From positions 868,001 through 932,000 of the forward strand of contig OZ014416.1 in assembly GCA_963965975.1 (NCBI GenBank): a stretch of 64,000 bases of DNA, written 5' to 3'. Positions within the stretch are counted from its first letter, which is position 1. Every line of letters begins with the position of its first letter. Under the pieces are notes generated by a model. That model was not told the origin of the DNA. It did not search any database and was given only the letters and a program-made list of their open reading frames with translations. Source of the stretch: Xestospongia bergquistia. Taxonomy: Eukaryota; Porifera; Demospongiae; Haplosclerida; Petrosiidae. Of the stretch, positions 6,853-61,779 are shown piece after piece. The translations under genes and the position numbers were made by a program.

Positions 6853-20400
<13,548 letters not shown>

Positions 20401-40736: not shown

Positions 40737-42320
40737 TCAGTCTTCCTTCTTCTTTTTCTTGTCACAACAGTCACAGCAGTATCTGACTAGTTTTATAGTT
40801 AAATAGATAACTCCACTAGCACATATTAACACTACACAATACACATCAATATTGTTATATTGAATCCAACTCCAATTATATTTAGCATAGGATGGTATCA
40901 GATGATCATAACCTATACTGGTATAGAACTCTATCAGTTCTGCTGCCCTTTCCACTCCTCCTGCTCTCAAGAACAATGTCCGCAATCTCTCAGCTTCTTT
41001 CATGTAGTTACCTGATCTGATAGATTGGACACTCTCTCGGACAACCTCTGCTGTAATCTTATCATAATCTAACATAATACCAGCTCCAGAATCCTGGACA
41101 CGAATAGCGTTACCCATTTGATCAGAAGATAATGGAGTTGTAATCAAAGGCACACCAAAATACAATGCTTGATGGATACCTCCTGCACCGCCATGCAGAA
41201 TTGCCATAGCGATAGCTTTGTGACTCAAAACTGTTGTTTGCGGTACCCATTTCAAAATATGGAATCGAGTCATATCAATTTCTAGACCTTCTACTGCAGC
41301 TTGATTGTGTACATTCATACTCCATAACACAGAGTAATTATCAGGTATACCATTGACGATAGCTTTTGCACATTCTCTACTCATTAAAATTACAGACCCC
41401 ATACTTACATAGATTACACTGGATGGAGTCTTCGCATCAAGCCAAGTTTGCAGTTCCCCAGGCAAGGGGTCTAATACTTTAGGAATGAGGGGTCCAACGT
41501 ATTCAGTCAGTGGAGAATGCGTGCGTGGGTATTCAAGACCAATAGCAGATACCACTATAGTGGGAAAATAATGTGTTTGGGGTACAGTGTAGCCATAGTA
41601 ACTCCAACAAGAATAGTCATTAACACTCACAGTGAATAACAACAAAATTTTAAACATCACTTCTAATATTATTTCAATCAAAAAGTTATTTAATCGTTCA
41701 ATGAAACTCATATTCTCTGAGAATGTAGACAGTATACTTGGAAAAGGCCATTGTGGTGCTAACCAGTATCCATCCAATAAATGAGGTACAACTATGACTG
41801 CTTTACTGTTGTAGTCTCTCACATGACACACTGTGCTCAACAGCATAAATTCCTCAATAATAATAATATCCCATTGGCTTAAGTTAAGAGTCTTCACATA
41901 ATTGTTAGTGTAAATAAACGTTGATTTTAGCATAAAAACTATTTCCAAAAAATTTACCAATACTGCGCTACCATTACGTTGAACTCGACTACGTAAATCA
42001 TCAGCTCTAAGTTCTGGAATTGGTACAAGAATACAATGAATATTCTTATACTCACATATGTCACGACTATATCTATTTCCTTCAATCTCTGGGATTATTA
42101 CAGTAAGATTGTGACCATGATGAACTAATTCCTCAGCTAATGTGAGAAGAGGGATCATGTGACCAGAAGATAAACTTGTTACCATGAGTATCGAGTGAGG
42201 TTGGATAATATGACTTTGGTCTAGATTGCTTAAAAGGACATGATCTTTTTGGTTATCATGGAATCCATTAGCTTGTAAGAGAGAAAACAACATAAAACTG
42301 ACAAGTAAGATGGGAGCCAT
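40737..42320 (-). CDS. Membrane UDP-glycosyltransferase (UGT family), intronless
   Basis: 527 residues in a single exon. Predicted ER enzyme transferring a sugar from a UDP-sugar to lipophilic acceptors. A signal peptide (MAPILLVSFMLFSLLQANG) is followed by the N-terminal acceptor domain with the usual S-x-GH-x-x-P motif (LSSGHMIPLL, His near residue 54, the likely catalytic base). The donor-binding UGT signature lies at about 357-405 (WVPQTTVLSH, HGGAGGIHQALYFGVPLI, SSDQMGNA). A C-terminal transmembrane helix at about 492-512 is followed by a cytosolic Cys-rich KLVRYCCDCCD and KKKKKED, which ends in a KKxx ER-retrieval signal. Length and topology fit animal UGTs. The true sugar donor (glucuronate, glucose or other) is not predictable. 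A Gly at HGGAGG replaces the more usual HGGxNS context (no Asn/Ser), a deviation from vertebrate UGTs. No intron, unlike every other complete gene here. Confidence 0.9.
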   Translation of the reverse strand: MAPILLVSFMLFSLLQANGFHDNQKDHVLLSNLDQSHIIQPHSILMVTSLSSGHMIPLLTLAEELVHHGHNLTVIIPEIEGNRYSRDICEYKNIHCILVPIPELRADDLRSRVQRNGSAVLVNFLEIVFMLKSTFIYTNNYVKTLNLSQWDIIIIEEFMLLSTVCHVRDYNSKAVIVVPHLLDGYWLAPQWPFPSILSTFSENMSFIERLNNFLIEIILEVMFKILLLFTVSVNDYSCWSYYGYTVPQTHYFPTIVVSAIGLEYPRTHSPLTEYVGPLIPKVLDPLPGELQTWLDAKTPSSVIYVSMGSVILMSRECAKAIVNGIPDNYSVLWSMNVHNQAAVEGLEIDMTRFHILKWVPQTTVLSHKAIAMAILHGGAGGIHQALYFGVPLITTPLSSDQMGNAIRVQDSGAGIMLDYDKITAEVVRESVQSIRSGNYMKEAERLRTLFLRAGGVERAAELIEFYTSIGYDHLIPSYAKYNWSWIQYNNIDVYCVVLICASGVIYLTIKLVRYCCDCCDKKKKKED

Positions 42321-42444: not shown

Positions 42445-44211
42445 CTATATATACTCTTCATCAGAGGAATATGTAGCAGTAAGAGGAGGAATATACTCTT
42501 CATCAGAATAATATGTAGGAGGAGGAAGAGGAGGAGCATCATGTCTACTCATTATCTCGTAATCATCATCATCTTGTTGTGGAATAGATTGGCTAGTGAT
42601 GTTGAATGTCACAACATTATGAACTAGCTCTAAATCTAAGGAGGATTATTCAATAATGGATTAATTATGGCTATACATGAATAATTATGTTTCCATGTAC
42701 TAGTCTATTGTACATTACATGCTGTAACCATAGCAATGAATAGGTATGTGTACATGTCTTGTTACTGTGGCTATGAATATTAAAATTAATTATGTCTTTC
42801 GTCAATGAGCTATAATTAAATCTGGTCCATCATGTTGGTCGTATTTGTATATATATACCTGTACCTATGTCTGGTTTAAGAGGCCACACTTCCACAAATA
42901 ATGCGATGATGAACACAACAACACCAGTGAGGCATCCCAATAAACCAAGTGAAATCAAAAAGTAACCAACCAAATCGGCAGTTTTATCACTATCATCTAA
43001 GGAGTTATAAATAAATATAAATAGAATAGGGAACACATGCAGCTGTGCATCTAAAAACTGGAAAGTATTAATTAAATGTCATATGCTGATTGAGTTAGTT
43101 ACAGAAGAATGCTCTCATCTTGTACAAATATAAATATTATAATATTTAAGGAACTGATATGGTAGAGATATCGTGAGAAAACTTACCTAAAGTGTAGTAG
43201 CTTGTCTGAGCCAATACTGGCTCAGATATAATTAAAAGAAGGAAAATAGCTTGAAAAATCATAATTATTATCCAGGCCAGCAACTAGAAGCGCATAATCA
43301 GAAGAGTTCGACTATAACTGTTTATATTAGTAAACGCATTATCGAGCGTGTCTTGACCATCTGGGCTATAAGAGGCATAAAGATAAGTACTATCTATGTT
43401 AGATCTATAGTAAGGCCATCAAAATGCACCGCAAATTTAATTACAATTTCATGGAATTTTGATAGAAATTAGAAAACGAAAGAAGACAGAAAATAATTGA
43501 CTTATGATGTTGAAGAACTAGTATTATATGTCCTGATATTAAATAAAAAGACTATCATAGTGATAACATTATTGATGAGCTAAAATATTAAAAATTGGAA
43601 AAATTAATATAAAAAAATCAGATACCAGCAAGTGGTCAGGCCATCACTTGGACTGGCCTAAGTGGGTCACACTACTATGACCCTGTCATACAGGAATGTT
43701 ACGATTACTTTTCAAATATTCAATTACTGATTACTTGAATCTAATTTTTATAATAATAATGACAATAACTAATTTCAGAATTACTAGGCTCATTTAAAAT
43801 TAGACTACAATCACTGATTATTCATGCACGAAAAAGCAAATCATTACATCCAGAGTAATAATAGCTTGTATATAAAATTCAGGTAAAGCATAGTGGTGAT
43901 CTCTTAATAATATACAAGATACCTTCAATCTATTGCATTGATTTATTTCCAACATATTCAGATATTTGATTTAAAACTGTATTATTTAAATCTGTCTTTT
44001 TTATTTATTTATTTATTTGACACTGCTCAAATCTCTATTACTGTCCAAACCTTAATTATCATTGCCCAAATGGGCTGTGATAACAGTTATTTTAGGCTCT
44101 GTACAGATATCATGAGAAAAACTTACCTGCAGTATAGTAGCTTGTCTGAGCCAACACTGATTCAAGTATCAATGAAGAAAGAAAGGTAGCTACAGCCAGA
44201 GATATTGTCAT
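42445..44211 (-). CDS. Array gene 1: small single-pass membrane protein, divergent tail, two alternative first exons
   Basis: Family not recognised. Exons (minus): alternative first exon 1B 44211-44127 (MTISLAVATFLSSLILESVL + AQTSYYTA) or 1A 43262-43187 (MIFQAIFLLLIISEPVLAQ + TSYYTL), transmembrane exon 42996-42865, tail exon 42635-42445. With 1A the coding length is 399 nt (132 residues). All junctions are phase 1. Predicted cleavage after VLA leaves about 15 extracellular residues, then one Gly-rich helix (VGYFLISLGLLGCLTGVVVF...), VWPLKP and a 63-residue tail. The tail differs from the other copies: acidic DDDDYEIMS, then PPLPPPTYYSDEEYIPPL with a PPxY motif and a repeated SDEEYI. The stop lies 124 bp beyond the UGT start. 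It is an edge copy of the array. An adaptor/receptor or WW-binding role is speculation. Confidence 0.72.
42690..42790. repeat. Dispersed 'CATAGCAATGAATAGG' repeat in intron 2 of each array gene
   Basis: Core tgctgtaaccatagcaatga plus ataggtatgtgtacatgtct. Further copies sit at the same intron position in the other units (about 45015, 47858, 50177, 53018, 55857, 58145). Since it is present in all seven genes, it predates the amplification. Confidence 0.8.
43634..43683. promoter_or_regulatory. Double palindrome upstream of exon 1A, repeated in every standard unit
   Basis: AGGCCA (43638) ... TGGCCT (43654) followed by GGGTCA (43664), 8 bases, TGACCC (43678). The same block recurs about 375 bp upstream of 1A in units 2-6 (about 45953, 48797, 51116, 53959, 56795), with slight damage in unit 3 (TGGTCT and one C lost from TGACCC). 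GGGTCA/TGACCC resembles inverted nuclear-receptor half sites. A promoter function is inferred. Confidence 0.35.
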
Positions 44212-44796
44212 GTTATCCAGCAATCTGGCAACTCTATGTGTTCTAAGCAAATTACTAATATATTTCTTCCTTGTTACGTTAGGGTAATTGTGAACTATTT
44301 TTTGAGTATACATTACCCTACCCAGGAATGTTATGATTACTTTAACTAACAATTGTAATTACTTTCAATGTGTCAGTCATCGTTTTATTACAATTGTTAA
44401 TCATTTATTTGCAGCTGCTGGCAAATGTACATGTAGTCATTATAGTATGAAGTTATTAGATGTGAACATAGCCTCATACCCGGGCATTAATTTTGGTGAA
44501 TGTCTAGGTATGAGGCTATGTAACTATATATAACTTGTTATGTGGTAATGTCACATGACGCTCTACTGTATATCTATTGTATAGGTCCAATCATACCTCA
44601 TCTAATTAAACTTTTAAGCCTTGAAATGTACAAGTATATGTTATATTATGAAGTTGACAATAACTAGTATGTTCATTAGCTTAAAATGAGGTCTGCACTC
44701 ACTTTGTAACATGTATAATATAAATATTACAGTACAGTGTGACTACAAGGATATATTAATTGTTATTACACAAGTCAACATCAAAATAAAGGGAAA

Positions 44797-46527
44797 TCAA
44801 TAATGATTTAATGGACTTGTCATTTCTTCATACGGGAAAGGCGATGTGGTGGGAGGAGCTTCATAGTCACTTGTTATTTCATATATTGCATTACCATCTT
44901 GTAAACAACGTGGAGCAGAAAGATTAACAATGTCATACGCCGTATTATCGACCACCTCTAAATCTGTAAATCAATAATTAAAAAGTGTATACGAATACTT
45001 AATAAAGTTAATTTTAATATACTAGTCTATTGTATACTACATACTGTAACCATAGCAATGAATAGGTATGTGTACATGTCTTGTTACTGTGGCTATGAAT
45101 ATTAAAATTAATTATGTCTTTCGTCAATGAGCTATAATTAAATCTGGTCCATCATGTTGGTCGTATTTGTATATATATACCTGTACCTATGTCTGGTTTA
45201 AGAGGCCACACTTCCACAAATAATGCGATGATGAACACAACAACACCAGTGAGGCATCCCAATAAACCAAGTGAAATCAAAACGTAACCAACCAAATCGG
45301 CAGTTTTATCACTATCATCTAAGGAGTTATAAATAAATATAAATAAAATATAGAACACATGCAGCTGTGCATCTAAAAACTGGAAAGTATTAATTAAATG
45401 TCATATGCTGATTGAGTTAGTTACAGAAGAATGCTGTCATCTTGTACAAATATAAATATTATAATATTTAAGGAATTGATATGGTAGAGATATCGTGAGA
45501 AAAATTATCTAAAGTGTAGTAGCTTGTCTGAGCCAATACTGGCTCAGATATAATTGGAAAAAGGAAAATAGCTTGAAAAATCATATTATCCAGGCCAGCA
45601 ACTAGGAGCTCATAATCAGAAGAGTTCAACTATAACTGTTTATATTAGTAAACCATCATCGAGCGCGTCTTGACCATCTGGGCTATAAGAGGCATAAATA
45701 TAAGTACTATCTATGATAGATCTATAGTAAGGCCATCAATATGCACTGCAAATTTAATTACAATTTTCATGGATTTTGGTAGAAATTAGAAAACGAAAGA
45801 AGACAGAAAATAATTGACTTATGATGTTGAAGAACTAGTATTATATGTCCTGATATTAAAGAAAAAGACTATCATAGTGATAACATTATTGATGAGCTAA
45901 AATATTAAAAATTGGAAAAATTAATATAAAAAAATCAGATACCAGAAAGTGGTCAGGCCATCACTTGGACTGGCCTGAGTGGGTCACACTACTATGACCC
46001 TGTCATACAGGAATGTTACGATTACTTTTCAAATATTCAATTACTGATTACTTGAATCTAATTTTTATAATAATAATGACAATAATTTATTTCAGAATTA
46101 CTAGGCTCATTTAAAATTAGACTACAATCACTGATTATTCATGCACAAAAAAGCAAATCATTACATCCAGAGTAATATAGCTTGTATATAAAATTCAGCT
46201 AAAGCATAGTGGTGATCTCTTAATAATATACAAGATACCTTCAATCTATTACATTAATTTATTTCCAACATATTCAGATATTTGATTTAAAACTGTATTA
46301 TTTAAATATGTCTTTTTTATTTATTTATTTATTTGACACTGCTCAAATCTCTATTACTGTCCAAACCTTAATTATCATTGCCCAAATGGGCTGTGATAAC
46401 AGTTATTTTAGGCTCTGTACAGATATCATGAAAAAAACTTACCTGCAGTATAGTGGCTTGTCTGAGCCAACACTGATTCAAGTATCAATGAAGAAAGAAA
46501 GGTAGCTACAGCCAGAGATATTGTCAT
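44797..46527 (-). CDS. Array gene 2: small membrane protein, exon 1A donor destroyed
   Basis: Exons: 1B 46527-46443, transmembrane exon 45318-45187, tail 44963-44797; 384 nt, 127 residues. The tail starts DLEVVDNTAYDIVNLSAPRC and includes NAIYEITSDYEAPPTTSPFP, then YEEM, ending PLNHY. The 1A copy (45584-45509) still encodes MIFQAIFLFPIISEPVLAQ but its donor reads TTTAG|ataatt instead of TTTAG|gtaagt, so only 1B can splice normally. A hAT-like fragment lies about 120 bp upstream of the 1B start codon. The TM exon is nearly identical to that of gene 1. Confidence 0.72.
45509..45584 (-). pseudogene. Disabled alternative first exon 1A of array gene 2
   Basis: The 76-bp exon retains its ATG and signal-peptide frame, but the donor GT is AT (45508-45507) and the following bases are also changed. 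Read-through would give SYYTLDNF and continue into the intron. Confidence 0.75.
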
Positions 46528-46648
46528 GTTATCCAGCAATCTGGCAACTCTATGTGTTCTAAGCAAATTACTAATATATTTCTTCCTTGTTATGTTAGGT
46601 TAATTGTGAACTATTTTTGGAGTATACATTACCCTACCCAGGAATGTT

Positions 46649-47173
46649 GCAGTGGTGTAGGAGCTGTAGCGACCATAGCAGCCATGGCCGCTACGCTTTA
46701 CTCATTAATTTCATAGTTATTAATATTCATAAACTATTAATAATAAATAATTAATTAACTACTCTAGCTGACTTCCCTTTCTTCACACTTCATTGAATCT
46801 AAGCTACATGCATGCAATGGCAATCGCTGGTAATAGTGGTAGATCTTTGCCTAACTAACCACACTAACCTCTTACTTTTCCATTTCCAAAAAGGGAATGT
46901 GAGAAAAAAGTGGTTTGTAGGAGAAGCTTCCAAGTTTCGTGGTTTAGTAAATGGTCTTAAATGGTCTTGGTTACATTATGTTGAAGATGAAGATGTTGTG
47001 TTGTGCTATACTTGTGGTCATGCTTATCCAGAAAAAAAACTTCATTGGAAAATTTTCACTTAATGATAATTAATCAAGTTAATTAATTTGTTCCACCCAT
47101 TAATAACTAGCCACGCCTACGTATTATACCATTGGCCTCTGCACTTAGAAATTGCTTCCTACATCTTTGTATT
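46649..47173 (+). mobile_element. hAT-like transposon fragment with partial zinc-finger ORF (copy 1)
   Basis: About 520 bp absent from the short units, inserted between ggaatgtt and gtgattacttt. The left end starts CAGTGGTGTAGGAGC, resembling hAT terminal repeats; no matching right terminal repeat is visible, so it is truncated or decayed. An ORF at 46812-47063 contains KKWFVGEASKFRGLVN and WSWLHYVEDEDVVLCYTC, the W-L-x-Y...C-x2-C pattern of the TTF/BED-like N-terminal finger of hAT and KIAA1586-type proteins. It ends soon after. The fragment lies about 120 bp upstream of exon 1B of array gene 2. Confidence 0.6.
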
Positions 47174-47638
47174 GTGATTACTTTAATTAACAATTATAAT
47201 TACTTTCAATGTGTCAGTCATCATTTTATTACAATTGTTAATCATTTATTTGCAGCTGCTGGCAAATGTACATGTAGTCATTATAGTATGAAGTTATTAG
47301 ATGTGAACATAGCCTCATACCCGGGCATTAATTTTGGTGAATGTCTAGGTATGAGGCTATGTAACTATATATAACTTGTTATGTGGTAATGTCACATGAT
47401 GCTCTACTGTATGTCTATTGTATAGGTCCAATCATACCTCATCTAATTAAACCTTTAAGCCTTGAAATGTACAAGTATATGTTTATATTATGAAGTTGAC
47501 AATAACTAGTATGTTCATTAGCTTAAAATGAGGTCTGCACTCACTTTGTAACATGTATAATATAAATATTACAGTACAGTGTGACTACAAGGATATATTA
47601 ATTGTTATTACACAAGTCAATATCAAAATAAAGGGAAA

Positions 47639-49373
47639 TCAATAATGATTTAATGGACTTGTCATTTCTTCATATGGGAAAGGCGATGTGGTGGGAGGAG
47701 CTTCATAGTCACTCGTTATTTCATATATTGTATTACCATCTTGTAAACAACGTGGAGCAGAAAGATTAACAATGTCATACGCCGCATTATCGACCACCTC
47801 TAAATCTGTAAATCAATAATTAAAAAGTGTATACAAATACTTAATAAAGTTAATTTTAATATACTAGTCTATTGTATACTACATGCTGTAACCATAGCAA
47901 TGAATAGGTATGTGTACATGTCTTGTTATTGTAGTCTGTGAATATTAAAATTAATTATGTCTTTCGTCAATGAGCTATAATTAAATCTGGTCCATCATGT
48001 TGGTCATATTTGTATATATACCTGTACCTATGTCTGGTTTAAGAGGCCACACTTCCACAAATAATGCAATGATGAACACAACAACACCAGTGAGGCATCC
48101 CAATAAACCAAGTGAAATCAAAACGTAACCAACCAAGTCAGCAGTTTTATCACTATCATCTAAGGAGTTATAAATAAATATAAATAGAATAGGGAACACA
48201 TGCAGATGTGCATCTAAAAACTGGAAAGTATTAATTAAATGTCATATGCTGATTGAGTTAGTTACAGAAGAATGCTATCATCTTGTACAAATATAAATAT
48301 TATAATATTTAAGGAACTGATATGGTAGAGATATTGTGAGAAAACTTACCTAAACTGTAGTAGCTTGTCTGAGCCAATACTGGCTCAGATATAATTAAAA
48401 GAAGGAAAATAGCTTGAAAAATCATAATTATTATCCAGGCCAGCAACTAGAAGCGCATAATCAGAAGAGTTCGACTATAACTGTTTATATTAGTAAACGC
48501 ATTATCGAGCGTGTCTTGACCATCTGGGCTATAAGAGGCATAAAGATAAGTACTATCTATGATAGATCTATAGTAAGGCCATCAAAATGCACCGCAAATT
48601 TAATTACAATTTCATGGAATTTTGATAGAAATTAGAAAACGAAAGAAGACAGAAAATAATTGACTTATGATGTTGAAGAACTAGTATTATATGTCCTGAT
48701 ATTAAAGAAAAAGACTATCATAGTGATAACATTATTGATGAGATAAAATATTAAAAATTGGAAAAATTAATATAAAAAAATCAGATACCAGAAAGTGGTC
48801 AGGCCATCACTTGGACTGGTCTGAGTGGGTCACACTACTATGACCTGTCATACAGGAATGTTATGATTGCTTTTCAAATATTCAATTACTGATTACTTGA
48901 ATCTAATTTTTATAATAATAATGACAATAACTAATTTCAGAATTACTAGGCTTATTTAAAATTAGACTACAATCACTGATTATTCATGCACGAAAAAGCA
49001 AATCATTACATCCAGAGTAATAATAGCTTGTATATAAAATTCAGGTAAAGCATAGTGGTGATCTCTTAATAATATACAAGATACCTTCAATCTATTGCAT
49101 TGATTTATTTCCAACATATTCAGATATTTGATTTAAAACTGTATTATTTAAATCTGTCTTTTTTATTTATTTATTTATTTGACACTGCTCAAATCTCTAT
49201 TACTGTCCAAACCTTAATTATCATTGCCCAAATGGGCTGTGATAACAGTTATTTTAGGCTCTGTACAGATATCATGAGAAAAACTTACCTGCAGTATAGT
49301 GGCTTGTCTGAGCCAACACTGATTCAAGTATCAATGAAGAAAGAAAGGTAGCTACAGCCAGAGATATTGTCAT
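47639..49373 (-). CDS. Array gene 3: small membrane protein, both first exons intact
   Basis: Exons: 1B 49373-49289 or 1A 48425-48350, transmembrane exon 48159-48028, tail 47805-47639. 1A gives 375 nt (124 residues) and 1B 384 nt (127 residues). Both donors are gtaagt. Signal peptides end in VLAQTS, the ectodomain is about 15 residues (DDSDKTADLVGY...), then one helix and the YDIV/YEIT tail. It lacks the hAT insertion. Its first-exon region is almost identical to that of gene 1 (offset 5162-5163 bp). Confidence 0.75.
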
Positions 49374-49958
49374 GTTATCCAGCAATCTGGCAACTCTATG
49401 TGTTCTAAGCAAATTACTAATATATTTCTTCCTTGTTACGTTAGGGTAATTGTGAACTATTTTTTGAGTATACATTACCCTACCCAGGAATGTTATGATT
49501 ACTTTAACTAACAATTGTAATTACTTTCAATGTGTCAGTCATCGTTTTATTACAATTGTTAATCATTTATTTGCAGCTGCTGGCAAATGTACATGTAGTC
49601 ATTATAGTATGAAGTTATTAGATGTGAACATAGCCTCATACCCGGGCATTAATTTTGGTGAATGTCTAGGTATGAGGCTATGTAACTATATATAACTTGT
49701 TATGTGGTAATGTCACATGACGCTCTACTGTATATCTATTGTATAGGTCCAATTATACCTCATCTAATTAAACTTTTAAGCCTTGAAATGTACAAGTATA
49801 TGTTATATTATGAAGTTGACAATAACTAGTATGTTCATTAGCTTAAAATGAGGTCTGCACTCACTTTGTAACATGTATAATATAAATATTACAGTACAGT
49901 GTGACTACAAGGATATATTAATTGTTATTACACAAGTCAACATCAAAATAAAGGGAAA

Positions 49959-51689
49959 TCAATAATGATTTAATGGACTTGTCATTTCTTCATACGGGAA
50001 AGGCGATGTGGTGGGAGGAGCTTCATAGTCACTTGTTATTTCATATATTGCATTACCATCTTGTAAACAACGTGGAGCAGAAAGATTAACAATGTCATAC
50101 GCCGTATTATCGACCACCTCTAAATCTGTAAATCAATAATTAAAAAGTGTATACGAATACTTAATAAAGTTAATTTTAATATACTAGTCTATTGTATACT
50201 ACATACTGTAACCATAGCAATGAATAGGTATGTGTACATGTCTTGTTACTGTGGCTATGAATATTAAAATTAATTATGTCTTTCGTCAATGAGCTATAAT
50301 TAAATCTGGTCCATCATGTTGGTCGTATTTGTATATATATACCTGTACCTATGTCTGGTTTAAGAGGCCACACTTCCACAAATAATGCGATGATGAACAC
50401 AACAACACCAGTGAGGCATCCCAATAAACCAAGTGAAATCAAAAAGTAACCAACCAAATCGGCAGTTTTATCACTATCATCTAAGGAGTTATAAATAAAT
50501 ATAAATAGAATAGGGAACACATGCAGCTGTGCATCTAAAAACTGGAAAGTATTAATTAAATGTCATATGCTGATTGAGTTAGTTACAGAAGAATGCTGTC
50601 ATCTTGTACAAATATAAATATTATAATATTTAAGGAATTGATATGGTAGAGATATCGTGAGAAAAATTATCTAAAGTGTAGTAGCTTGTCTGAGCCAATA
50701 CTGGCTCAGATATAATTGGAAAAAGGAAAATAGCTTGAAAAATCATATTATCCAGGCCAGCAACTAGGAGCTCATAATCAGAAGAGTTCAACTATAACTG
50801 TTTATATTAGTAAACCATCATCGAGCGCGTCTTGACCATCTGGGCTATAAGAGGCATAAATATAAGTACTATCTATGATAGATCTATAGTAAGGCCATCA
50901 ATATGCACTGCAAATTTAATTACAATTTTCATGGATTTTGGTAGAAATTAGAAAACGAAAGAAGACAGAAAATAATTGACTTATGATGTTGAAGAACTAG
51001 TATTATATGTCCTGATATTAAAGAAAAAGACTATCATAGTGATAACATTATTGATGAGCTAAAATATTAAAAATTGGAAAAATTAATATAAAAAAATCAG
51101 ATACCAGAAAGTGGTCAGGCCATCACTTGGACTGGCCTGAGTGGGTCACACTACTATGACCCTGTCATACAGGAATGTTACGATTACTTTTCAAATATTC
51201 AATTACTGATTACTTGAATCTAATTTTTATAATAATAATGACAATAATTTATTTCAGAATTACTAGGCTCATTTAAAATTAGACTACAATCACTGATTAT
51301 TCATGCACAAAAAAGCAAATCATTACATCCAGAGTAATATAGCTTGTATATAAAATTCAGCTAAAGCATAGTGGTGATCTCTTAATAATATACAAGATAC
51401 CTTCAATCTATTACATTAATTTATTTCCAACATATTCAGATATTTGATTTAAAACTGTATTATTTAAATATGTCTTTTTTATTTATTTATTTATTTGACA
51501 CTGCTCAAATCTCTATTACTGTCCAAACCTTAATTATCATTGCCCAAATGGGCTGTGATAACAGTTATTTTAGGCTCTGTACAGATATCATGAAAAAAAC
51601 TTACCTGCAGTATAGTGGCTTGTCTGAGCCAACACTGATTCAAGTATCAATGAAGAAAGAAAGGTAGCTACAGCCAGAGATATTGTCAT
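49959..51689 (-). CDS. Array gene 4: small membrane protein, exon 1A donor destroyed
   Basis: Exons: 1B 51689-51605, transmembrane exon 50480-50349, tail 50125-49959; 127 residues. It is practically a copy of gene 2 shifted by 5162 bp, including the dead 1A donor (ataatt, 1A at 50746-50671) and the hAT-like insertion upstream of 1B. Its transmembrane exon, however, matches that of gene 1 (KPDIG context, ...GYFLIS, FPILF upstream), showing mosaic exchange between units. Confidence 0.73.
50671..50746 (-). pseudogene. Disabled alternative first exon 1A of array gene 4
   Basis: Same lesion as in gene 2: TTTAG|ataatt in place of TTTAG|gtaagt, signal-peptide frame otherwise open. Confidence 0.75.
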
Positions 51690-51810
51690 GTTATCCAGCA
51701 ATCTGGCAACTCTATGTGTTCTAAGCAAATTACTAATATATTTCTTCCTTGTTATGTTAGGTTAATTGTGAACTATTTTTGGAGTATACATTACCCTACC
51801 CAGGAATGTT

Positions 51811-52335
51811 GCAGTGGTGTAGGAGCTGTAGCGACCATAGCAGCCATGGCCGCTACGCTTTACTCATTAATTTCATAGTTATTAATATTCATAAACTATT
51901 AATAATAAATAATTAATTAACTACTCTAGCTGACTTCCCTTTCTTCACACTTCATTGAATCTAAGCTACATGCATGCAATGGCAATCGCTGGTAATAGTG
52001 GTAGATCTTTGCCTAACTAACCACACTAACCTCTTACTTTTCCATTTCCAAAAAGGGAATGTGAGAAAAAAGTGGTTTGTAGGAGAAGCTTCCAAGTTTC
52101 GTGGTTTAGTAAATGGTCTTAAATGGTCTTGGTTACATTATGTTGAAGATGAAGATGTTGTGTTGTGCTATACTTGTGGTCATGCTTATCCAGAAAAAAA
52201 ACTTCATTGGAAAATTTTCACTTAATGATAATTAATCAAGTTAATTAATTTGTTCCACCCATTAATAACTAGCCACGCCTACGTATTATACCATTGGCCT
52301 CTGCACTTAGAAATTGCTTCCTACATCTTTGTATT
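51811..52335 (+). mobile_element. hAT-like transposon fragment (copy 2)
   Basis: Essentially identical to the copy at 46649, offset 5162 bp, upstream of exon 1B of array gene 4; ORF at 51974-52225. Duplicated with the unit, not an independent insertion. Confidence 0.6.
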
Positions 52336-52800
52336 GTGATTACTTTAATTAACAATTATAATTACTTTCAATGTGTCAGTCATCATTTTATTACAATTGT
52401 TAATCATTTATTTGCAGCTGCTGGCAAATGTACATGTAGTCATTATAGTATGAAGTTATTAGATGTGAACATAGCCTCATACCCGGGCATTAATTTTGGT
52501 GAATGTCTAGGTATGAGGCTATGTAACTATATATAACTTGTTATGTGGTAATGTCACATGATGCTCTACTGTATGTCTATTGTATAGGTCCAATCATACC
52601 TCATCTAATTAAACCTTTAAGCCTTGAAATGTACAAGTATATGTTTATATTATGAAGTTGACAATAACTAGTATGTTCATTAGCTTAAAATGAGGTCTGC
52701 ACTCACTTTGTAACATGTATAATATAAATATTACAGTACAGTGTGACTACAAGGATATATTAATTGTTATTACACAAGTCAATATCAAAATAAAGGGAAA

Positions 52801-54536
52801 TCAATAATGATTTAATGGACTTGTCATTTCTTCATATGGGAAAGGCGATGTGGTGGGAGGAGCTTCATAGTCACTCGTTATTTCATATATTGTATTACCA
52901 TCTTGTAAACAACGTGGAGCAGAAAGATTAACAATGTCATACGCCGCATTATCGACCACCTCTAAATCTGTAAATCAATAATTAAAAAGTGTATACAAAT
53001 ACTTAATAAAGTTAATTTTAATATACTAGTCTATTGTATACTACATGCTGTAACCATAGCAATGAATAGGTATGTGTACATGTCTTGTTACTGTGGCTAT
53101 GAATATTAAAATTAATTATGTCTTTCGTCAATGAGCTATAATTAAATCTGGTCCATCATGTTGGTCGTATTTGTATATATATACCTGTACCTATGTCTGG
53201 TTTAAGAGGCCACACTTCCACAAATAATGCGATGATGAACACAACAACACCAGTGAGGCATCCCAATAAACCAAGTGAAATCAAAAAGTAACCAACCAAA
53301 TCGGCAGTTTTATCACTATCATCTAAGGAGTTATAAATAAATATAAATAAAATATAGAACACATGCAGCTGTGCATCTAAAAACTGGAAAGTATTAATTA
53401 AATGTCATATGCTGATTGAGTTAGTTACAGAAGAATGCTGTCATCTTGTACAAATATAAATATTATAATATTTAAGGAATTGATATGGTAGAGATATCGT
53501 GAGAAAACTTACCTAAAGTGTAGTAGCTTGTCTGAGCCAATACTGGCTCAGATATAATTAAAAAAAGGAAAATAGCTTGAAAAATCATAATTATTATCCA
53601 GGCCAGCAACTAGGAGCGCATAATCAGAAGAGTTCAACTATAACTGTTTATATTAGTAAACGCATTATCGAGCGTGTCTTGACCATCTGGGTTATAAGAA
53701 GCATAAAGATAAGTACTATCTATGTTAGATCTATAGTAAGGCCATCAAAATGCACCGCAAATTTAATTACAATTTCATGGAATTTTGGTAGAAATTAGAA
53801 AACAAAAGAAGGCAGAAAATAATTGACTTATGATGTTGAAGAACTAGTATTATATGTCCTGATATTAAAGAAAAAGACTATCATAGTGATAACATTATTG
53901 ATGAGATAAAATATTAAAAATTGGAAAAATTAATATAAAAAAATCAGATACCAGAAAGTGGTCAGGCCATCACTTGGACTGGCCTGAGTGGGTCACACTA
54001 CTATGACCCTGTCATACAGGAATGTTACGATTACTTTTCAAATATTCAATTACTGATTACTTGAATCTAATTTTTATAATAATAATGACAATAATTTATT
54101 TCAGAATTACTAGGCTCATTTAAAATTAGACTACAATCACTGATTATTCATGCACAAAAAAGCAAATCATTACATCCAGAGTAATATAGCTTGTATATAA
54201 AATTCAGCTAAAGCATAGTGGTGATCTCTTAATAATATACAAGATACCTTCAATCTATTACATTAATTTATTTCCAACATATTCAGATATTTGATTTAAA
54301 ACTATATTATTTAAATATGTCTTTTTTATTTATTTATTTATTTGACACTGCTCAAATCTCTATTACTGTCCAAACCTTAATTATCATTGCCCAAATGGGC
54401 TGTGATAACAGTTATTTTAGGCTCTGTACAGATATCATGAAAAAAACTTACCTGCAGTATAGTGGCTTGTCTGAACCAACACTGATTCAAGTATCAATGA
54501 AGAAAGAAAGGTAGCTACAGCCAGAGATATTGTCAT
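52801..54536 (-). CDS. Array gene 5: small membrane protein, both first exons intact
   Basis: Exons: 1B 54536-54452 or 1A 53588-53513 (intact gtaagt donor), transmembrane exon 53322-53191, tail 52967-52801 with NTAYDIVNL and YEITS motifs. Predicted products are 127 or 124 residues. The unit carries the hAT-like insertion upstream of 1B but, unlike genes 2 and 4, keeps a working 1A donor. In 1B the residue before QTS remains Ala-compatible, although the codon before it changed (gaacca, giving VLVQTSHYTA). Confidence 0.72.
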
Positions 54537-54656
54537 GTTATCCAGCAATCTGGCAACTCTATGTGTTCTAAGCAAATTACTAATATATTTCTTCCTTGTT
54601 ATGTTAGGTTAATTGTGAACTATTTTTGAGTATACATTACCCTACCCAGGAATGTT

Positions 54657-55170
54657 GCAGTGGTGTAGGAGCTGTAGCGACCGTAGCAGCCATGGCCGCT
54701 ACGCTTTACTCATAATTTCATATTCATAAACTATTAATAATAAATAATTAATTAACTACTCTAGCTGACTTCCCTTTCTTCACACTTCATTGAATCTAAG
54801 CTACATGCATGCAATGGCAATCGCTGGTAATAGTGGTAGATCTTTGCCTAACTAACCACACTAACCTCTTACTTTTCCATTTCCAAAAAGGGAATGTGAG
54901 AAAAAAGTGGTTTGTAGGAGAAGCTTCCAAGTTTCGTGGTTTAGTAAATGGTCTTAAATGGTCTTGGTTACATTATGTTGAAGATGAAGATGTTGTGTTC
55001 TGCTATACTTGTGGTCGTGCTTATCCAGAAAAAAAACTTCATTGGAAAATTTTCACTTAATGATAATTAATCAAGTTAATTAATTTGTTCCACCCATTAA
55101 TAACTAGCCACGCCTACGTATTATACCATTGGCCTCTGCACTTAGAAATTGCTTCCTACATCTTTGTATT
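54657..55170 (+). mobile_element. hAT-like transposon fragment (copy 3)
   Basis: Same insertion upstream of exon 1B of array gene 5, with small deletions (near 54710) and a few substitutions; ORF 54809-55060 changes L to F and H to R near the CxxC (FCYTCGRAY). Confidence 0.6.
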
Positions 55171-55635
55171 GTGATTACTTTAATTAACAATTATAATTAC
55201 TTTCAATGTGTCAGTCATCATTTTATTACAATTGTTAATCATTTATTTGCAGCTGCTGGCAAATGTACATGTAGTCATTATAGTATGAAGTTATTAGATG
55301 TGAACATAGCCTCATACCCGGGCATTAATTTTGGTGAATGTCTAGGTATGAGGCTATGTAACTATATATAACTTGTTATGTGGTAATGTCACATGATGCT
55401 CTACTGTATGTCTATTGTATAGGTCCAATCATACCTCATCTAATTAAACCTTTAAGCCTTGAAATGTACAAGTATATGTTTATATTATGAAGTTGACAAT
55501 AACTAGTATGTTCATTAGCTTAAAATGAGGTCTGCACTCACTTTGTAACATGTATAATATAAATATTACAGTACAGTGTGACTACAAGGATATATTAATT
55601 GTTATTACACAAGTCAATATCAAAATAAAGGGAAA

Positions 55636-56422
55636 TCAATAATGATTTAATGGACTTGTCATTTCTTCATATGGGAAAGGCGATGTGGTGGGAGGAGCTT
55701 CATAGTCACTCATTATTTCATATATTGTATTACCATCTTGTAAACAACGTGGAGCAGAAAGATTAACAATGTCATACGCCGTATTATCGACCACCTCTAA
55801 ATCTGTAAATCAATAATTAAAAAGTGTATACGAATACTTAATAAAGTTAATTTTAATATACTAGTCTATTGTATACTACATGCTGTAACCATAGCAATGA
55901 ATAGGTATGTGTACATGTCTTGTTATTGTAGTCTGTGAATATTTAAATTAATTATGTCTTTCGTCAATGAGCTATAATTAAATCTGGTCCATCATGTTGG
56001 TCATATTTGTATATATACCTGTACCTATGTCTGGTTTAAGAGGCCACACTTCCACAAATAATGCAATGATGAACACAACAACACCAGTGAGGCATCCCAA
56101 TAAACCAAGTGAAATCAAAACGTAACCAACCAAGTCAGCAGTTTTATCACTATCATCTAAGGAGTTATAAATAAATATAAATAGAATATAGAACACATGC
56201 AGATGTGCATCTAAAAACTGGAAAGTATTAATTAAATGTCATATGCTGATTGAGTTAGTTAGAGAAGAATGCTATCATCTTGTACAAATATAAATATTAT
56301 AATATTTAAGGAACTGATATGGTAGAGATATTGTGAGAAAACTTACCTAAACTGTAGTAGCTTGTCTGAGCCAATACTGGCTCAGATATAATTGAAAAAA
56401 GGAAAATAGCTTGAAAAATCAT
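55636..56422 (-). CDS. Array gene 6: small membrane protein, only exon 1A usable
   Basis: Exons: 1A 56422-56347, transmembrane exon 56156-56025, tail 55802-55636; 124 residues. Exon 1B (57278 to about 57352) has lost its first codons through a ~19-bp deletion that removed the ATG, so this unit depends on 1A. That is the reverse of genes 2 and 4. No hAT insertion upstream. The TM exon has the V variant (VGYVLISLGLLGCL). Confidence 0.73.
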
Positions 56423-57277
56423 AATTATTATCCAGGCCAGCAACTACGAGCGCATAATGAGAAGAGTTCAACTATAACTGTTTATATTAGTAAACCCATT
56501 ATCTAGCGCGTCTTGACCATCTGGGCTATAAGAGGCATAAAGGTAAGTACTATCTATGATAGATCTATAGTAAGGCCATCAAAGTGCACCGCAAATTTAA
56601 TTACAATTTTCATGGAATTTTGATAGAAATTAGAAAACGAAAGAAGACAGAAAATAATTGACTTATGATGTTGAAGAACTAGTATTATATGTCCTGATAT
56701 TAAAGAAAAAGACTATCATAGTGATAACATTATTGATGAGCTAAAATATTAAAAATTGGAAAAATTAATATAAAAAAATCAGATACCAGCAAGTGGTCAG
56801 GCCATCACTTGGACTGGCCTAAGTGGGTCACACTACTATGACCCTGTCATACAGGAATGTTACGATTACTTTTCAAATATTCAATTACTGATTACTTGAA
56901 TCTAATTTTTATAATAATAATTACAATAATTAATTTCAGAATTACTAGGCTCATTTAAAATTAGACTACAATGACTGATTATTCATACATGAAAAAGCAA
57001 ACCATTACATCCAGAGTAATATAGCTTGTATGTAAAATTCAGGTAAAACATAGTGGTGATCTCTTAATAATATACAAGATACCTTCAATCTATTGCATTG
57101 ATTTATTTCCAACATAGATATTTGATTTAAAACTGTATTATTTAAATCTGTCTTTTTTATTTATTTATTTGACACTGCTCAAATCTCTATTTCTGTCCAA
57201 ACCTTGATTATCATTGCCCAAATGGGTGTGATAACAGTTATTTTAGGCTCTGTACAGATATCATGAGAAAAACTTAC

Positions 57278-57352
57278 CTGCAGTATAGTGGCTTGTCTGA
57301 GCCAATACTGATTCAAGTATCAATGAAGAAAGAAAGGTAGCTACAACCAGAG
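57278..57352 (-). pseudogene. Disabled alternative first exon 1B of array gene 6
   Basis: Compared with the other five copies, the bases spanning the start codon (gatattgtcatgttatcca in the others) are missing, while the frame from VATFLSSLILESVLAQTS-type sequence and the gtaagt donor remain. Confidence 0.75.
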
Positions 57353-57929
57353 CAATCTGGCAACTCTATGTGTTCTAAGCAAATTACTAATATATTTCTT
57401 CCTTGTTACGTTAGGGTAATTGTGAACTATTTTTGGAGTATACATTACCCTACCCAGGAATGTTGTGATTACTTTAACTAACAATTGTAATTACTTTCAA
57501 TGTGTCAGTCATCGTTTTATTATAATTGTTAATCATTTATTTGCAGCTGCTGGCAAATGTACATGTAGTCATTATAGTATGAAGTTATTAGATGTGAACA
57601 TAGCCTCATACCCAGGCATTAATTTTGGTGAATGTCTAGGTATGAGGCTATGTAACTATATATAACTTGTTATGTGGTAATGTCACATGATGCTCTACTG
57701 TATGTCTATTGTATAGGTCCAATCATACCACATCTAATTAAACTTTTAAGCCTTGAAATGTACAAGTATATGTTTATATTATGAAGTTGACAATAACTAG
57801 TATGTTCGTTAGCTTAAAATGAGGTCTGCACTCACTTTGTAACATGTATAATATAAATATTACAGTACAGTGTGACTACAAGGATATATTAATTTTTATT
57901 ACACAAGTCAATATCAAAATAAAGGGAAA

Positions 57930-59127
57930 TCAATAATGATTTAATGGACTTGTCATTTCTTCATATGGGAAAGGCGATGTGGTGGGAGGAGCTTCATAGT
58001 CACTCGTTATTTCATATATTGCATTACCATCTTGTAAACAACGTGGAGCAGAAAGATTAACAATGTCATACGCCACATTATCGACCACCTCTAAATCTGT
58101 AAATCAATAATTAAAAAGTGTATACGAATGCTTAATAAAGTTAATTTTAATATACTAGTGCTAGATGTTGTAACCATAGCAATGAATAGGTATGTGTACA
58201 TGTCTTGTACTGTGGTCTATGAATATTTAATAGTCCTCTCACAAGTATTATGCAAGATGAATAATAATTAGTCCATCTTGTTATATATATTTAAGGAAGC
58301 CCAGTGGGAGTCTTACTTTTGGACAGTCTAAACCTCAGGCCACATACTTTAATGCATTATGTTTATGATTTAGAGGATAGGGATCAGTATTAAAATATGA
58401 TGATCTTGGAGTGTCTCTCTGGACTTCTTGTACATATTTTCTGTTATGTAAAATATTTATCTATATATTACCTGTGTTTGGTTTAAGAGGCCACACCCCC
58501 ACAAAGAATGCAACAACGAATATAGCAATGCCACTGAGGAAAGCCAACACACCAAGTGATATCAAAATATAACCAACAGATTGTACATCATTTGATTCAG
58601 TGTTAGTAGTAACTATAGATATATGAAAATACAAGTATTCAAATAGATTTGCAAAAATAAAAGTCAAACCATCCTTCAAACTAGCGTTGTTTTAGTTAGT
58701 TATAGTTATCATCTGTCACAATAGGTCACAATAGTTTTAGTTAGTGATAGTTAGTTAACTAAAATATAACTAGACTAATAGTTAGTTAACTAAAATATAA
58801 CTAGACTAATAGTTAGTTAACTAAAAGACTAAACTAAAGGTTTTAGTTTTAGTTAACTAAAACAATACTACTTCCAAGCACACAGATATTGACCTCTATC
58901 TGTACACAATACATGAATATCTAAAGTGGAGTCCATCAATAGAGAAAGTAAGTTAAGTAACTGAATGATTTATTTGCATTGAGGTAGACTGTAGTATAAT
59001 CATCCTTACAATTATTTTAATTTACAAGAAACATACCCACAGTATAGTAGCTTGTTTGAGCAAATATGGACGCAGCAAATATCATTAAGAAAAGAAAAAC
59101 AACAAATACTGGATCGGATGTCATCAT
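57930..59127 (-). CDS. Array gene 7: divergent member at the right edge
   Basis: Exons: first exon 59127-59037 (MMTSDPVFVVFLFLMIFAAS then IFAQTSYYTV), transmembrane exon 58612-58472, tail 58096-57930; 399 nt, 132 residues, all phase 1. The first and transmembrane exons are diverged (TTNTESNDVQSVGYILISLG, FVGVWPLKP) but align along their length with the array consensus. The tail exon is close to the standard array tail (YDIV/YEIT type). Only one first exon is seen, which suggests an ancestral single-promoter form or a lost 1B. Conserved residues between this copy and the array (AQTSYYT, VGYxLISLG, VWPLKP) mark what selection probably keeps. Confidence 0.7.
58685..58870. repeat. TTAG/CTAA-rich tandem repeat in intron 1 of array gene 7
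   Basis: Three copies of a ~31-bp unit containing tagttagttaactaaaatat within a longer stretch of alternating ttagtt and aactaa words. It is self-complementary and able to form hairpins. Non-coding. Confidence 0.8.
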
Positions 59128-59770: not shown

Positions 59771-61779
59771 TTAATTCCTGTCCAGCTGTAGATTGTTATC
59801 TGAGGCTATCACGTACATTTTCCTGGGACGTTGTTGGTGTGAAGACAAGGACAATCTATGTCTCTTTGTAAATGATGCAGGAGGTGTTCCACATTGTGGT
59901 GTTATCTTAATAGGTGTAGTCGCCATTGTGGGAGATGTTGGCTCATTCATCCCTGTTTCCATAGATAAAGCCTTCCCTCGTATCAACCCAAACAAACTCC
60001 TTTTACTCTGGATTGGAGATAACCCAACTGCTCGTTTGGAACGTCTTGAAAACCAAGATGATTTTTCTTGAGTAGACATGTTTTCTTCCTTAATGGGCAA
60101 CTTTAGACTGTTCTTCTTTGCTTGCTTGTCATTTGTATTCTCTTCTTCCCCAGAACTCTCAAATTTGTGTTCAAAAGCTGAGGGTAAAACTGGAGATGCC
60201 ATGACATCATTTTTTTCAGGTTGTATGAAGATATGCTCATTACTACGTCTCATCATGTGTGTAGTTAGAGGGCTTGGGTGTTTTAAAAATGTTCGTCTGT
60301 GGTTAAATGACAATTCATATGTACTCTTGCTTCGCCTGAGTTTGCTATTACGTAGGAAGTAAGATGAGCTAGTGTCATTTTCATTACTTTCATCATCTTC
60401 TTCATCATTACTCTCTAGGATGTTTGTCAGTTGGATAGCACTTCGTCGAGTGTTGAGTCGTTTTTCAAGGTTGTTATAGAAACGGAAATTGGAGTGCAGA
60501 CTTAAGCTTCGTTGTCTTTTTGTTTCATTCATGTCTCTGTGCTCTAAATAACCTGATTGGCCATTAAACAGTTGGAATTTTTGTGTAATGTCATCATCTT
60601 TTTTTGATAACTCTTTAATTATTTCTGTCATCAATGAGGAAGAGCTATGACATTCTTTTGTAGTTTGTTCAGAGAAGGATGAACACATTGATCCTTCATC
60701 AGAACTAAGGGACACACTTTGGAGAGGACAGGTTGATGTAGAAGGCTCACATTTAGTGGACTCCTCTTGTATGGAATCATTTTGAAAAGGTGTCATCAAA
60801 TCAGGAGAGTTGGTATCCAGAATGTATGTATTGGTGATGTTAGTTGGATTAGATCGAACACGACGATGTTGTCCCATTTTTCTCACATGGTCTGTTGGAC
60901 TTTCCAGGGGATTGACAGGGGAACAAAGTGAGAGAGGAAGATATTCTTCGTCATCAGTATTACTATCACTATCTTCAATAATTTTAGATGGATGTGATAA
61001 GGGGTGGGGCTGAATGGAATCTGTTTGCGTTGCTACGTCAACCAGGGTCACATTAAGACAATGCATATTTCTACCATATGTGGTGGGGTCAGAATGATCA
61101 CCATTCCTTTCCAGGAGAGTATTAAGACTAGCTGTTCTACTCCAACAAGGTGCAAGGGAAGATCTTTTCGATGATGTAGACCAGTTTTCAAATGCGGAAT
61201 CAGCAGGACTTAAGAGAAGTGGTATGGACAATCTTGGTGACTTTTTGTGGGGGTCAGATCCTGTCCGACCAGGTAATGTAGCGGGTAACGTCCCCCGTCT
61301 GCTCCCATGAGGAGAGGTAGAGAGCTGAAGATCAAACGGGAACGCTGAGGAGGAGTTACTGCTCAATGTTGAATCATTTGATGTCACACGACGAAATCCA
61401 ATTCCTGAGGATTTTGGCAAGATAGGAGAGGTACCTCCTATACTAGTTCTGTGATTTGATGATTGAAGGGGTTCTAAGAGGTCTTGAGATATGCCATGCA
61501 GTATTCTCTCCTGACGAAGGGAGTGCAAGATGTGCCAAGTTTGACACTTGCGCTGAACAGCTGAGTCATAAAATTCCTATAAAATTAACAAAATAGTTTT
61601 ATTACGTTTTAATAAAAATGTTTTGAGTATAAATATTAGCATGACTTACCTGTGCTGCTGCAATCTGATCCATCCATTCTTTTGCTATCTGAGGAGAGTG
61701 AGCTTTGAGAGTAAAAAATGTGGAAAGGACATGAAACTCATTCAACACTATACAACATATTGTGCCTGTGTGTGTGTGC

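Follow-up and report, generated by a model that had tools for sequence, protein, structure and literature searches.

A tandem array of seven small membrane-protein genes in the sponge Xestospongia bergquistia, lying within a window of 64,000 nucleotides, is a mosaic of two parental types. Five of its units join the first exons and transmembrane (TM) exon of one parent to the tail exon of the other, with the switch falling in a ~90-bp repeat common to intron 2 of both. An earlier note on this DNA noticed neither that the array is chimeric in origin nor that its tails carry tyrosine motifs; it is otherwise largely borne out, with corrections to its picture of a uniform family, of twelve intact first exons and of identical mature ends.

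Architecture of the array

The units (U1 to U7) run head-to-tail, all on the reverse strand, with a start-to-start spacing of 2.3-2.8 kb. The TM and tail exons, together with the sole first exon of U7, are as follows (window coordinates):

42445..42635 (-) U1 tail exon, Y-type, 191 nt, acceptor ctccttag; homologous ORFs P0081, P0082
42865..42996 (-) U1 TM exon, Y-type
44797..44963 (-) U2 tail exon, X-type
45187..45318 (-) U2 TM exon, Y-type
47639..47805 (-) U3 tail exon, X-type
48028..48159 (-) U3 TM exon, Y-type
49959..50125 (-) U4 tail exon, X-type
50349..50480 (-) U4 TM exon, Y-type
52801..52967 (-) U5 tail exon, X-type
53191..53322 (-) U5 TM exon, Y-type
55636..55802 (-) U6 tail exon, X-type, YEIM variant
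56025..56156 (-) U6 TM exon, Y-type
57930..58096 (-) U7 tail exon, X-type
58472..58612 (-) U7 TM exon, X-type, 141 nt; outside ORF P0080
59037..59127 (-) U7 sole first exon, X-type, 91 nt

U1 to U6 each carry two first exons, 1A (76 nt) and 1B (85 nt), followed by a TM exon of 132 nt; the tail exon measures 167 nt in U2 to U7. Every exon junction is in phase 1, the TM and tail exons are open with intact splice sites in 7/7 units, and each unit retains at least one undamaged first exon. Re-reading of the exons thus agrees with the units, spacing and phase first described. Predicted coding sequences come to 375 nt (from 1A) and 384 nt (from 1B) in U2 to U6, 399 and 408 nt in U1, and 399 nt in U7; the three lengths previously listed (375, 384, 399) are indeed multiples of three, but the 408-nt form of U1 had been overlooked. 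Exon-length differences between paralogues (9, 6, 9 and 24 nt) are likewise all multiples of three, for which the chance expectation of (1/3)^4 = 0.012 is optimistic, because the frame was in mind when the exon limits were chosen. Splice signals, frames, these differences in threes and matching ORFs outside the array all support the view that the genes are real.

Two parents and five chimeras

U7 is of X type throughout and U1 of Y type throughout, whereas U2 to U6 combine Y first exons and a Y TM exon with an X tail exon, giving three architectures in all (X/X, Y/Y and Y-head/X-tail). A single uniform seven-gene family was rejected, because U1 has a tail, and U7 a head, of another type; along with the TM exon of U7, these are strongly diverged from U2 to U6. 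Divergence is opposite at the two ends of the array, and the two regions of similarity overlap only within the intron-2 repeat, which has 7 matches in the array and 12 more nearby on the same contig:

42695..42784 (.) U1 intron-2 repeat, where homology with U2-U6 starts; chimera junction zone
58162..58230 (.) U7 intron-2 repeat, at which tail-side homology with U2-U6 stops; chimera junction zone

Between U7 and U1, DNA alignments were found only for the first exon, for this repeat and for the TM exon together with short edges of its introns; their tail exons did not align, and just 21/51 aligned residues are common to the X and Y tail proteins. The earlier suggestion of a single mature protein, or of closely similar ones, thus needs amending. 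The parts of these genes have separate histories with a switch at a defined point, as in a hybrid tandem array. The switch falls in a repeat shared by intron 2 of both parents, so U2 to U6 probably arose by unequal crossing-over mediated by that repeat, although the event itself is something we infer from the sequence pattern.

Turnover seems to have continued. Two units 5,162 bp apart share an identical stretch of 2,576 bp, which ends at 47928, within the intron-2 repeat; U2 and U4 show no differences over segments of 858, 1111 and 223 bp, which points to very recent turnover. Among the aligned unit pairs listed, divergence is 1-5%, and lesions and indels distinguish individual units. The longer unit spacings arise because a dispersed element is inserted in 3/6 intergenic intervals (1111, 1111 and 1099 bp, vs 585, 585 and 567 bp without it):

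46649..47170 (.) ~520-bp dispersed element in the U2-U3 interval; additional copies at 51811-52333 and 54657-55168

A zinc-finger-like fragment read in this element had suggested hAT, but as that reading lacks Pfam support we leave the element nameless.

Paired first exons and their lesions

The first exons of U1 to U6 are:

43187..43262 (-) U1 1A, donor intact
44127..44211 (-) U1 1B, intact
45509..45584 (-) U2 1A, donor GT>AT, broken
46443..46527 (-) U2 1B, intact
48350..48425 (-) U3 1A, intact
49289..49373 (-) U3 1B, intact
50671..50746 (-) U4 1A, donor GT>AT, broken
51605..51689 (-) U4 1B, intact
53513..53588 (-) U5 1A, intact
54452..54536 (-) U5 1B, Ala>Val at the residue preceding the predicted signal cleavage site
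56347..56422 (-) U6 1A, intact
57278..57362 (-) U6 1B remnant, in which the start codon is deleted, with an in-frame stop just upstream

Both first-exon sequences are present in 6/6 of these units, as reported, but three of the twelve copies are lesioned and a fourth (U5 1B) is weakened. Exon 1A of U2 and of U4 has ATAATTTT at its donor in place of the intact GTAAGTTT, making normal 1A splicing impossible in both; in U6 1B the stretch with the ATG is gone. Only U1, U3 and U5 keep both first exons free of splice or start lesions, and there the two exons, joining in the same phase, are in sequence compatible with mutually exclusive leaders. 1A and 1B are 77-80% alike over 74 nt, which supports the view that they are paralogous first exons of real genes, and the two first exons of Y probably came from a duplication. 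Their mature starts, described earlier as the same, resemble each other without being identical: 1A products begin QTSYY(T/S)L and 1B products QTS(H/Y)YTA. The pairs may be served by alternative promoters, as the earlier note proposed. Upstream of 1A and 1B no homology was detected, a point against the model favoured below. We also considered that 1B might belong to another gene, with a concealed TM exon between 1B and 1A; none of the candidates in the 3/6 units scanned was convincing, the best (in U1 and U3) being of 30 and 36 residues with a top hydropathy of 1.54.

Coding constraint and 3' signals

In favour of coding, dN and dS between X and Y are 0.33 and 0.52 for the TM exon and 0.56 and 1.22 for the tail, and within U1 to U6, 3/4 variable TM codons are synonymous. 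On the other side, dN/dS ranges over 0.25-0.68 in five comparisons, and X/Y differences in the TM exon number 7, 6 and 10 at codon positions 1, 2 and 3, a small third-position excess; 3/4 variable tail codons change the residue, as do all variable first-exon codons (three in 1A and two in 1B, U6 left out), and U2 and U3 differ at 4/76 nt in 1A, compared with 27/857 in the following intron. The outside ORF P0080 shows such close similarity that even its intron is identical, which makes it a weak guide to constraint. U7 has AATAAA 30 nt past its stop; in U2 to U6 both AATAAA and ATTAAA are missing over about 385 nt.

Predicted protein and database searches

The predicted layout comprises a signal peptide, an ectodomain of ~15-20 residues starting QTSYYT (counted after the predicted cleavage site), one TM segment and a short, acidic, tyrosine-rich tail of ~55-63 residues with YxxM/YxxP motifs. 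The four models scanned have two hydrophobic segments and a charge of -8 to -14 from residue 71 onward; the translations show no charged residue in mid-TM. X and Y tails have YEI[T/M]Sx[Y/H][E/D]APP in common; YDIV and YEEM occur in the X tail, YEIM in the Y tail and that of U6, and one to three EEYIPP units across Y tails, with more in P0081 and P0082 than in the array tail. Against shuffled tails, YxxM plus YxxP were in excess in 2/5 (U6, p 0.017; P0081, itself a repeat, p 0.003; uncorrected) and not in U3 (p 0.11), U1 (p 0.19) or P0082 (p 0.15). The genome holds at least 81 SH2 matches (0/14 control genomes). Its one match to p85 iSH2 lies 749 bp away from an SH2 match on C5; one of the 14 controls also gives an iSH2 signal, below cut-off.

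The family went unrecognised in the earlier note, and our searches concur: no Pfam family exceeds the cut-off for the three models tested, and no copies were found elsewhere in the same genome. The 127-residue U3 1B protein as query found no match at E<=10 among 22 candidates, and a profile of four mature proteins matched 3/221 (E 7.4e-13, 1.4e-3 and 2.0e-2). All three ORFs lie on outside contigs, P0080 as an X TM exon and P0081 and P0082 as Y tails; only these parent types, and no chimera, were seen there. A PDB profile search gave 11 weak matches, the best (E 0.13) to residues 53-88 of a 5HT2B receptor chimera. Neighbouring genes had been read as mTOR, Groucho, OPA1 and RhoGEF, but only a UDPGT and a WD40 repeat exceed the Pfam cut-off. 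The UDPGT protein is 37% identical to an Amphimedon queenslandica protein and 86% to that of another relative, which makes A. queenslandica an unlikely source of this DNA.

Origin and function

Synthesising these observations, we lean on balance towards a model in which X (now U7) and Y (now U1) were adjacent ancestral paralogues, each a single-pass protein with a signal peptide, Y carrying two alternative first exons. Unequal crossing-over at the short intron-2 repeat would have joined the first exons and TM exon of Y to the tail exon of X, and more unequal exchange, with gene conversion, would have given the five chimeras. A tyrosine kinase might then phosphorylate the tail, with YxxM/YxxP sites recruiting SH2 proteins (PI3K p85 or Crk, for example). 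The array would raise dose, and the X tail would gain the expression pattern and ectodomain of Y. The predicted layout suggests a phosphotyrosine docking adaptor, which we consider the likeliest function; a signalling role is plausible but unproven.

The identity of 2,576 bp at a lag of 5,162 could be taken to mean that the array is wholly or partly an assembly artefact, but this is very improbable given the 1-5% differences and unit-specific lesions and indels of aligned pairs, and the occurrence on outside contigs of an X TM exon and of Y tails, all of parental type, even if no chimera accompanies them there. It is a less remote, if still rather unlikely, prospect that the units are mainly decaying recent local copies, with expression limited to U7, U1 or a few units and the second first exons as non-regulatory relics: the first-exon lesions, the residue change at every variable 1A codon, the lack in U2 to U6 of the AATAAA seen in U7, and the very recent turnover of U2 and U4 all fit, but open TM and tail exons with intact splice sites in all seven units, and an undamaged first exon in each, do not.

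The array could also be real and chimeric and yet encode endocytic or lysosomal cargo, its tails binding clathrin adaptors and not SH2 proteins. By the standard definition of the YxxPhi motif, YDIV and YEEM of the X tail and YEIM of the Y and U6 tails would qualify; EEYIPP, the unit that recurs in P0081 and P0082, falls outside it, and we think this reading improbable. We are similarly doubtful of a bolder extension of the docking-adaptor model, a fast-evolving modular locus in which the intron repeat shuffles dual-promoter heads with phosphotyrosine tails of varying YIPP number, as an independent invention of transmembrane adaptors; if true, an early-branching animal would diversify adaptors by copy number and tail choice, much as immune or self-recognition loci do.

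The locus offers a clean example of new genes built from the first exons, signal peptide and TM anchor of one gene and the cytoplasmic tail of its neighbour, in which the parents still lie on either side of the array and the zone of exchange can be seen. Its first-exon lesions make it possible to test whether a duplicated pair of first exons shares out the work or simply decays. Should the tails dock SH2 proteins, they would form an adaptor system, probably of sponge origin, for which we found no sequence similarity to known families.

Comparison with known systems

Among the literature titles listed, none names a sponge locus. As described for LAT, SIT, TRIM and PAG (PMC2803307), transmembrane adaptor proteins (TRAPs) have a short extracellular part, one TM segment and several tail tyrosines, a layout that hydropathy and tail tyrosines predict in four array models. 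Unlike TRAPs, the array proteins have a short tail and a predicted cleavable signal peptide; the juxtamembrane CxxC of raft TRAPs (LAT, PAG, NTAL, LIME) is absent from the translations, by eye, and the Pfam (three models) and PDB profile searches gave no homology to a named TRAP. The EEYIPP units of the Y tails resemble the cytosolic YxxP repeats of choanoflagellate transmembrane proteins, proposed as Crk SH2 sites (PMC5043372); in the set described there, 2/5 have thrombospondin or cysteine-rich ectodomains and 3/5 SH2-like domains, whereas the array protein is tiny and has neither.

IGF1 has two mutually exclusive leader exons that supply different signal sequences to a common mature protein (PMC3607797), as the two first exons may do here; it is, however, a single gene with a secreted product, while in the array the first mature residues also change and the arrangement is repeated in tandem. 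Chicken BG genes (PMC4046983), compared here by layout, encode an Ig V-like domain together with tails of heptad repeats; a head type that sets expression is, for the sponge array, unproven. In the account given there, BG genes nonetheless keep the signal sequence in the first exon, a separate TM exon and the tail exons 3', and, like the array, they are close, same-orientation membrane-protein genes that include 5'/3' hybrids of two lineages, attributed to unequal crossing-over or deletion.

Locus and exon anatomy

The window spans 868001-932000 of contig C6, in a genome of 146 Mb and 21 contigs. The seven units of the array (U1 to U7, numbered by rising plus-strand coordinate, such that U7 is the most upstream in the direction of transcription) all lie on the minus strand, head to tail, between a UDPGT gene and a large ORF (59771-61528) for which a Pfam search gave no match. 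The UDPGT protein has 86% identity to an ENA protein, its best named relatives among the 79 matches listed being from Amphimedon (37%) and Halichondria (36%); the source is therefore probably a sponge, though a different one from Amphimedon.

40737-42320, minus strand: UDPGT gene, single exon, intact, directly downstream of the array
46649-47170, 51811-52333, 54657-55168: ~520-bp element, with matching pieces in the genome

The ~520-bp element has 40 matching pieces across 9 contigs (its three array copies included), and encodes an 83-residue ORF with one CxxC, for which no Pfam match above cut-off was found.

Exon positions were taken from minus-strand matches to each exon type, with splicing then verified for each unit. 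The two alternative first exons, 1A and 1B, that an earlier note had described for six units are indeed both present in all of U1-U6, with U7 having one first exon only; both are free of start or donor lesions, however, in just three units (U1, U3 and U5). GT donors and AG acceptors are found throughout, save for the 1A donor of U2 and U4, which reads ATAATTTT in place of GTAAGTTT. In U6, 1B has lost its ATG and carries an in-frame stop just upstream; in U5, 1B has an Ala to Val change immediately before the predicted signal-peptidase site, which we take to lie where the -3/-1 rule places it. Each unit retains at least one first exon without a start or donor lesion, but the resulting complementary pattern is not statistically meaningful, because the lesion events are so few. 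Coding sequences are of 375/384 nt in U2-U6, 399 nt in U7 and 399/408 nt in U1, thus including the three lengths previously predicted and adding that of 408.

Probable chimeric origin of the array

We consider it highly probable that the array is of chimeric origin, a point of more interest than the idea of two promoters. The first and transmembrane (TM) exons of U7 are strongly divergent from those of the other units (69% nucleotide identity for TM), and yet its tail is 98% identical to that of U2. Conversely, U1 shares its head and TM exon with U2-U6 but not its tail (21/51 aligned residues the same). U2-U6 thus combine the head and TM of one parent type (Y, seen today as U1) with the tail of another (X, seen today as U7). 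Homology of U1 to the other units begins at 42695 and that of U7 stops at 58230; projected on U5, these limits fall at 53021 and 53110, overlapping by about 90 bp in intron 2. The overlap block is itself a repeat, with at least 19 genome matches (lower bounds, as common words were skipped in the search), seven of them in the array.

42695-42784, 13448-13542, 62492-62675 in the window, and 681-957 kb of the same contig (C6): ~90-bp repeat, from the genome search

All of these matches are confined to a stretch of about 275 kb on a single contig, which is unusual for a mobile element.

In the simplest history, an ancestral X-Y gene pair would have undergone unequal crossing-over within the ~90-bp repeat, joining a Y head to an X tail, and this unit would then have expanded in number. 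An exact identity of 2,576 bp (45353-47928) links units at a lag of 5,162, its right end lying inside the repeat. U2 and U4 match without a difference in 858 and 223 bp of intron, as do the 1,111-bp intergenic stretches that precede them. From 1A to TM, by contrast, the two units differ at 3/190 bp, which makes repeated exchange or gene conversion among units likely.

Coding capacity and constraint

The gene family is real and unrecognised, and apparently lineage-restricted, as judged by genome-copy, Pfam, homologue, ENA-ORF profile and PDB profile searches. Length differences among paralogous exons are all divisible by three: 9 and 6 nt for the first exons, 9 nt for TM and 24 nt for the tail. 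The similarity of 1A to 1B is 77-80% across the 74 nt compared, with no aligning sequence between the two upstream, and U7 and U1 align as DNA in the first exon, TM exon and intron-2 repeat, their tail exons being alignable as protein only. Estimates of dN and dS were 0.33 and 0.52 for the X and Y TM exons, 0.56 and 1.22 for the tails, and 0.40 and 0.59 for 1A against 1B (copies from U3); the U7 first exon gave a dS of 1.62 against 1A and 0.79 against 1B, with dN about 0.41 in both. TM-exon differences number 7, 6 and 10 at codon positions 1, 2 and 3, only a slight third-position enrichment. Variable codons within the array are synonymous in 3/4 cases for TM, but residue-changing in 3/4 for the tail, 3/3 for 1A and 2/2 for 1B. 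Constraint, as read from these substitutions, is moderate at best. Past the stop, U7 has AATAAA at 30 nt, where U2-U6 have AATAAC (plus-strand text reverse-complemented), and U1 has ATTAAA at 90 nt.

A profile search of ENA ORFs gave three matches from outside contigs (E = 7.4e-13, 1.4e-3 and 2.0e-2). P0080 agrees with U7 around the TM exon at 70/73 residues, intronic codons among them, and is therefore a genomic ORF rather than a transcript; its three departures (a codon loss, a codon gain and a codon change) are confined to the ectodomain part, and so close a relative is weak evidence of constraint. P0081 and P0082 match the U1 tail at 44/57 and 45/55 residues.

Protein features and proposed function

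The protein is predicted to have a signal peptide, a mature N-terminus of QTS(Y/H)YT, an ectodomain of ~15-20 residues, one TM segment without charge in its middle, and a tail of ~55-63 residues. Tyrosines in the tail number 5 or 6, and charge from residue 71 on is -8 to -14 in the four models scanned. X tails carry YDIV, YEIT (YEIM in U6), YEAP and YEEM, and Y tails YEIM and YIPP. The Y tail also contains a 42-nt repeat, and EEYIPP/YIPP units number one in U1 (tail, 42448-42633), two in P0082 and three in P0081, a variation which suggests a coding minisatellite.

Beyond the exon anatomy, mosaic and lesions, which are directly observed, we propose that the tail is phosphorylated and then docks SH2 proteins. 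The summed YxxM and YxxP motifs exceed chance in only 2/5 tails by shuffling tests, so that motifs alone are no proof of an adaptor, and we hold that function to be possible but somewhat doubtful. The genome encodes SH2 domains (at least 81 matches) and also has a p85 iSH2 match. Some of the SH2 matches are clustered, with 10 on C6 (1622265-1697212) in open frames of 398-500 residues, and 12 on another contig (C3, 1266387-1283528) as six pairs, 318 bp start to start; both clusters look like tandem gene arrays.

The proposal of alternative promoters, with 1A or 1B as the respective first exon in the manner of IGF1 (PMC3607797), survives in part only, given the lesions in half of the six units; we put the chances that dual use is real in at least one unit as evenly balanced. 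A phosphorylated, SH2-docking tail would resemble that of the transmembrane adaptor proteins (TRAPs), as outlined in PMC2803307, with YxxP as a proposed Crk site (PMC5043372). Finally, the chimeras would bring Y-head expression to the X tail, a hand-over for which chicken BG (PMC4046983) offers a precedent.
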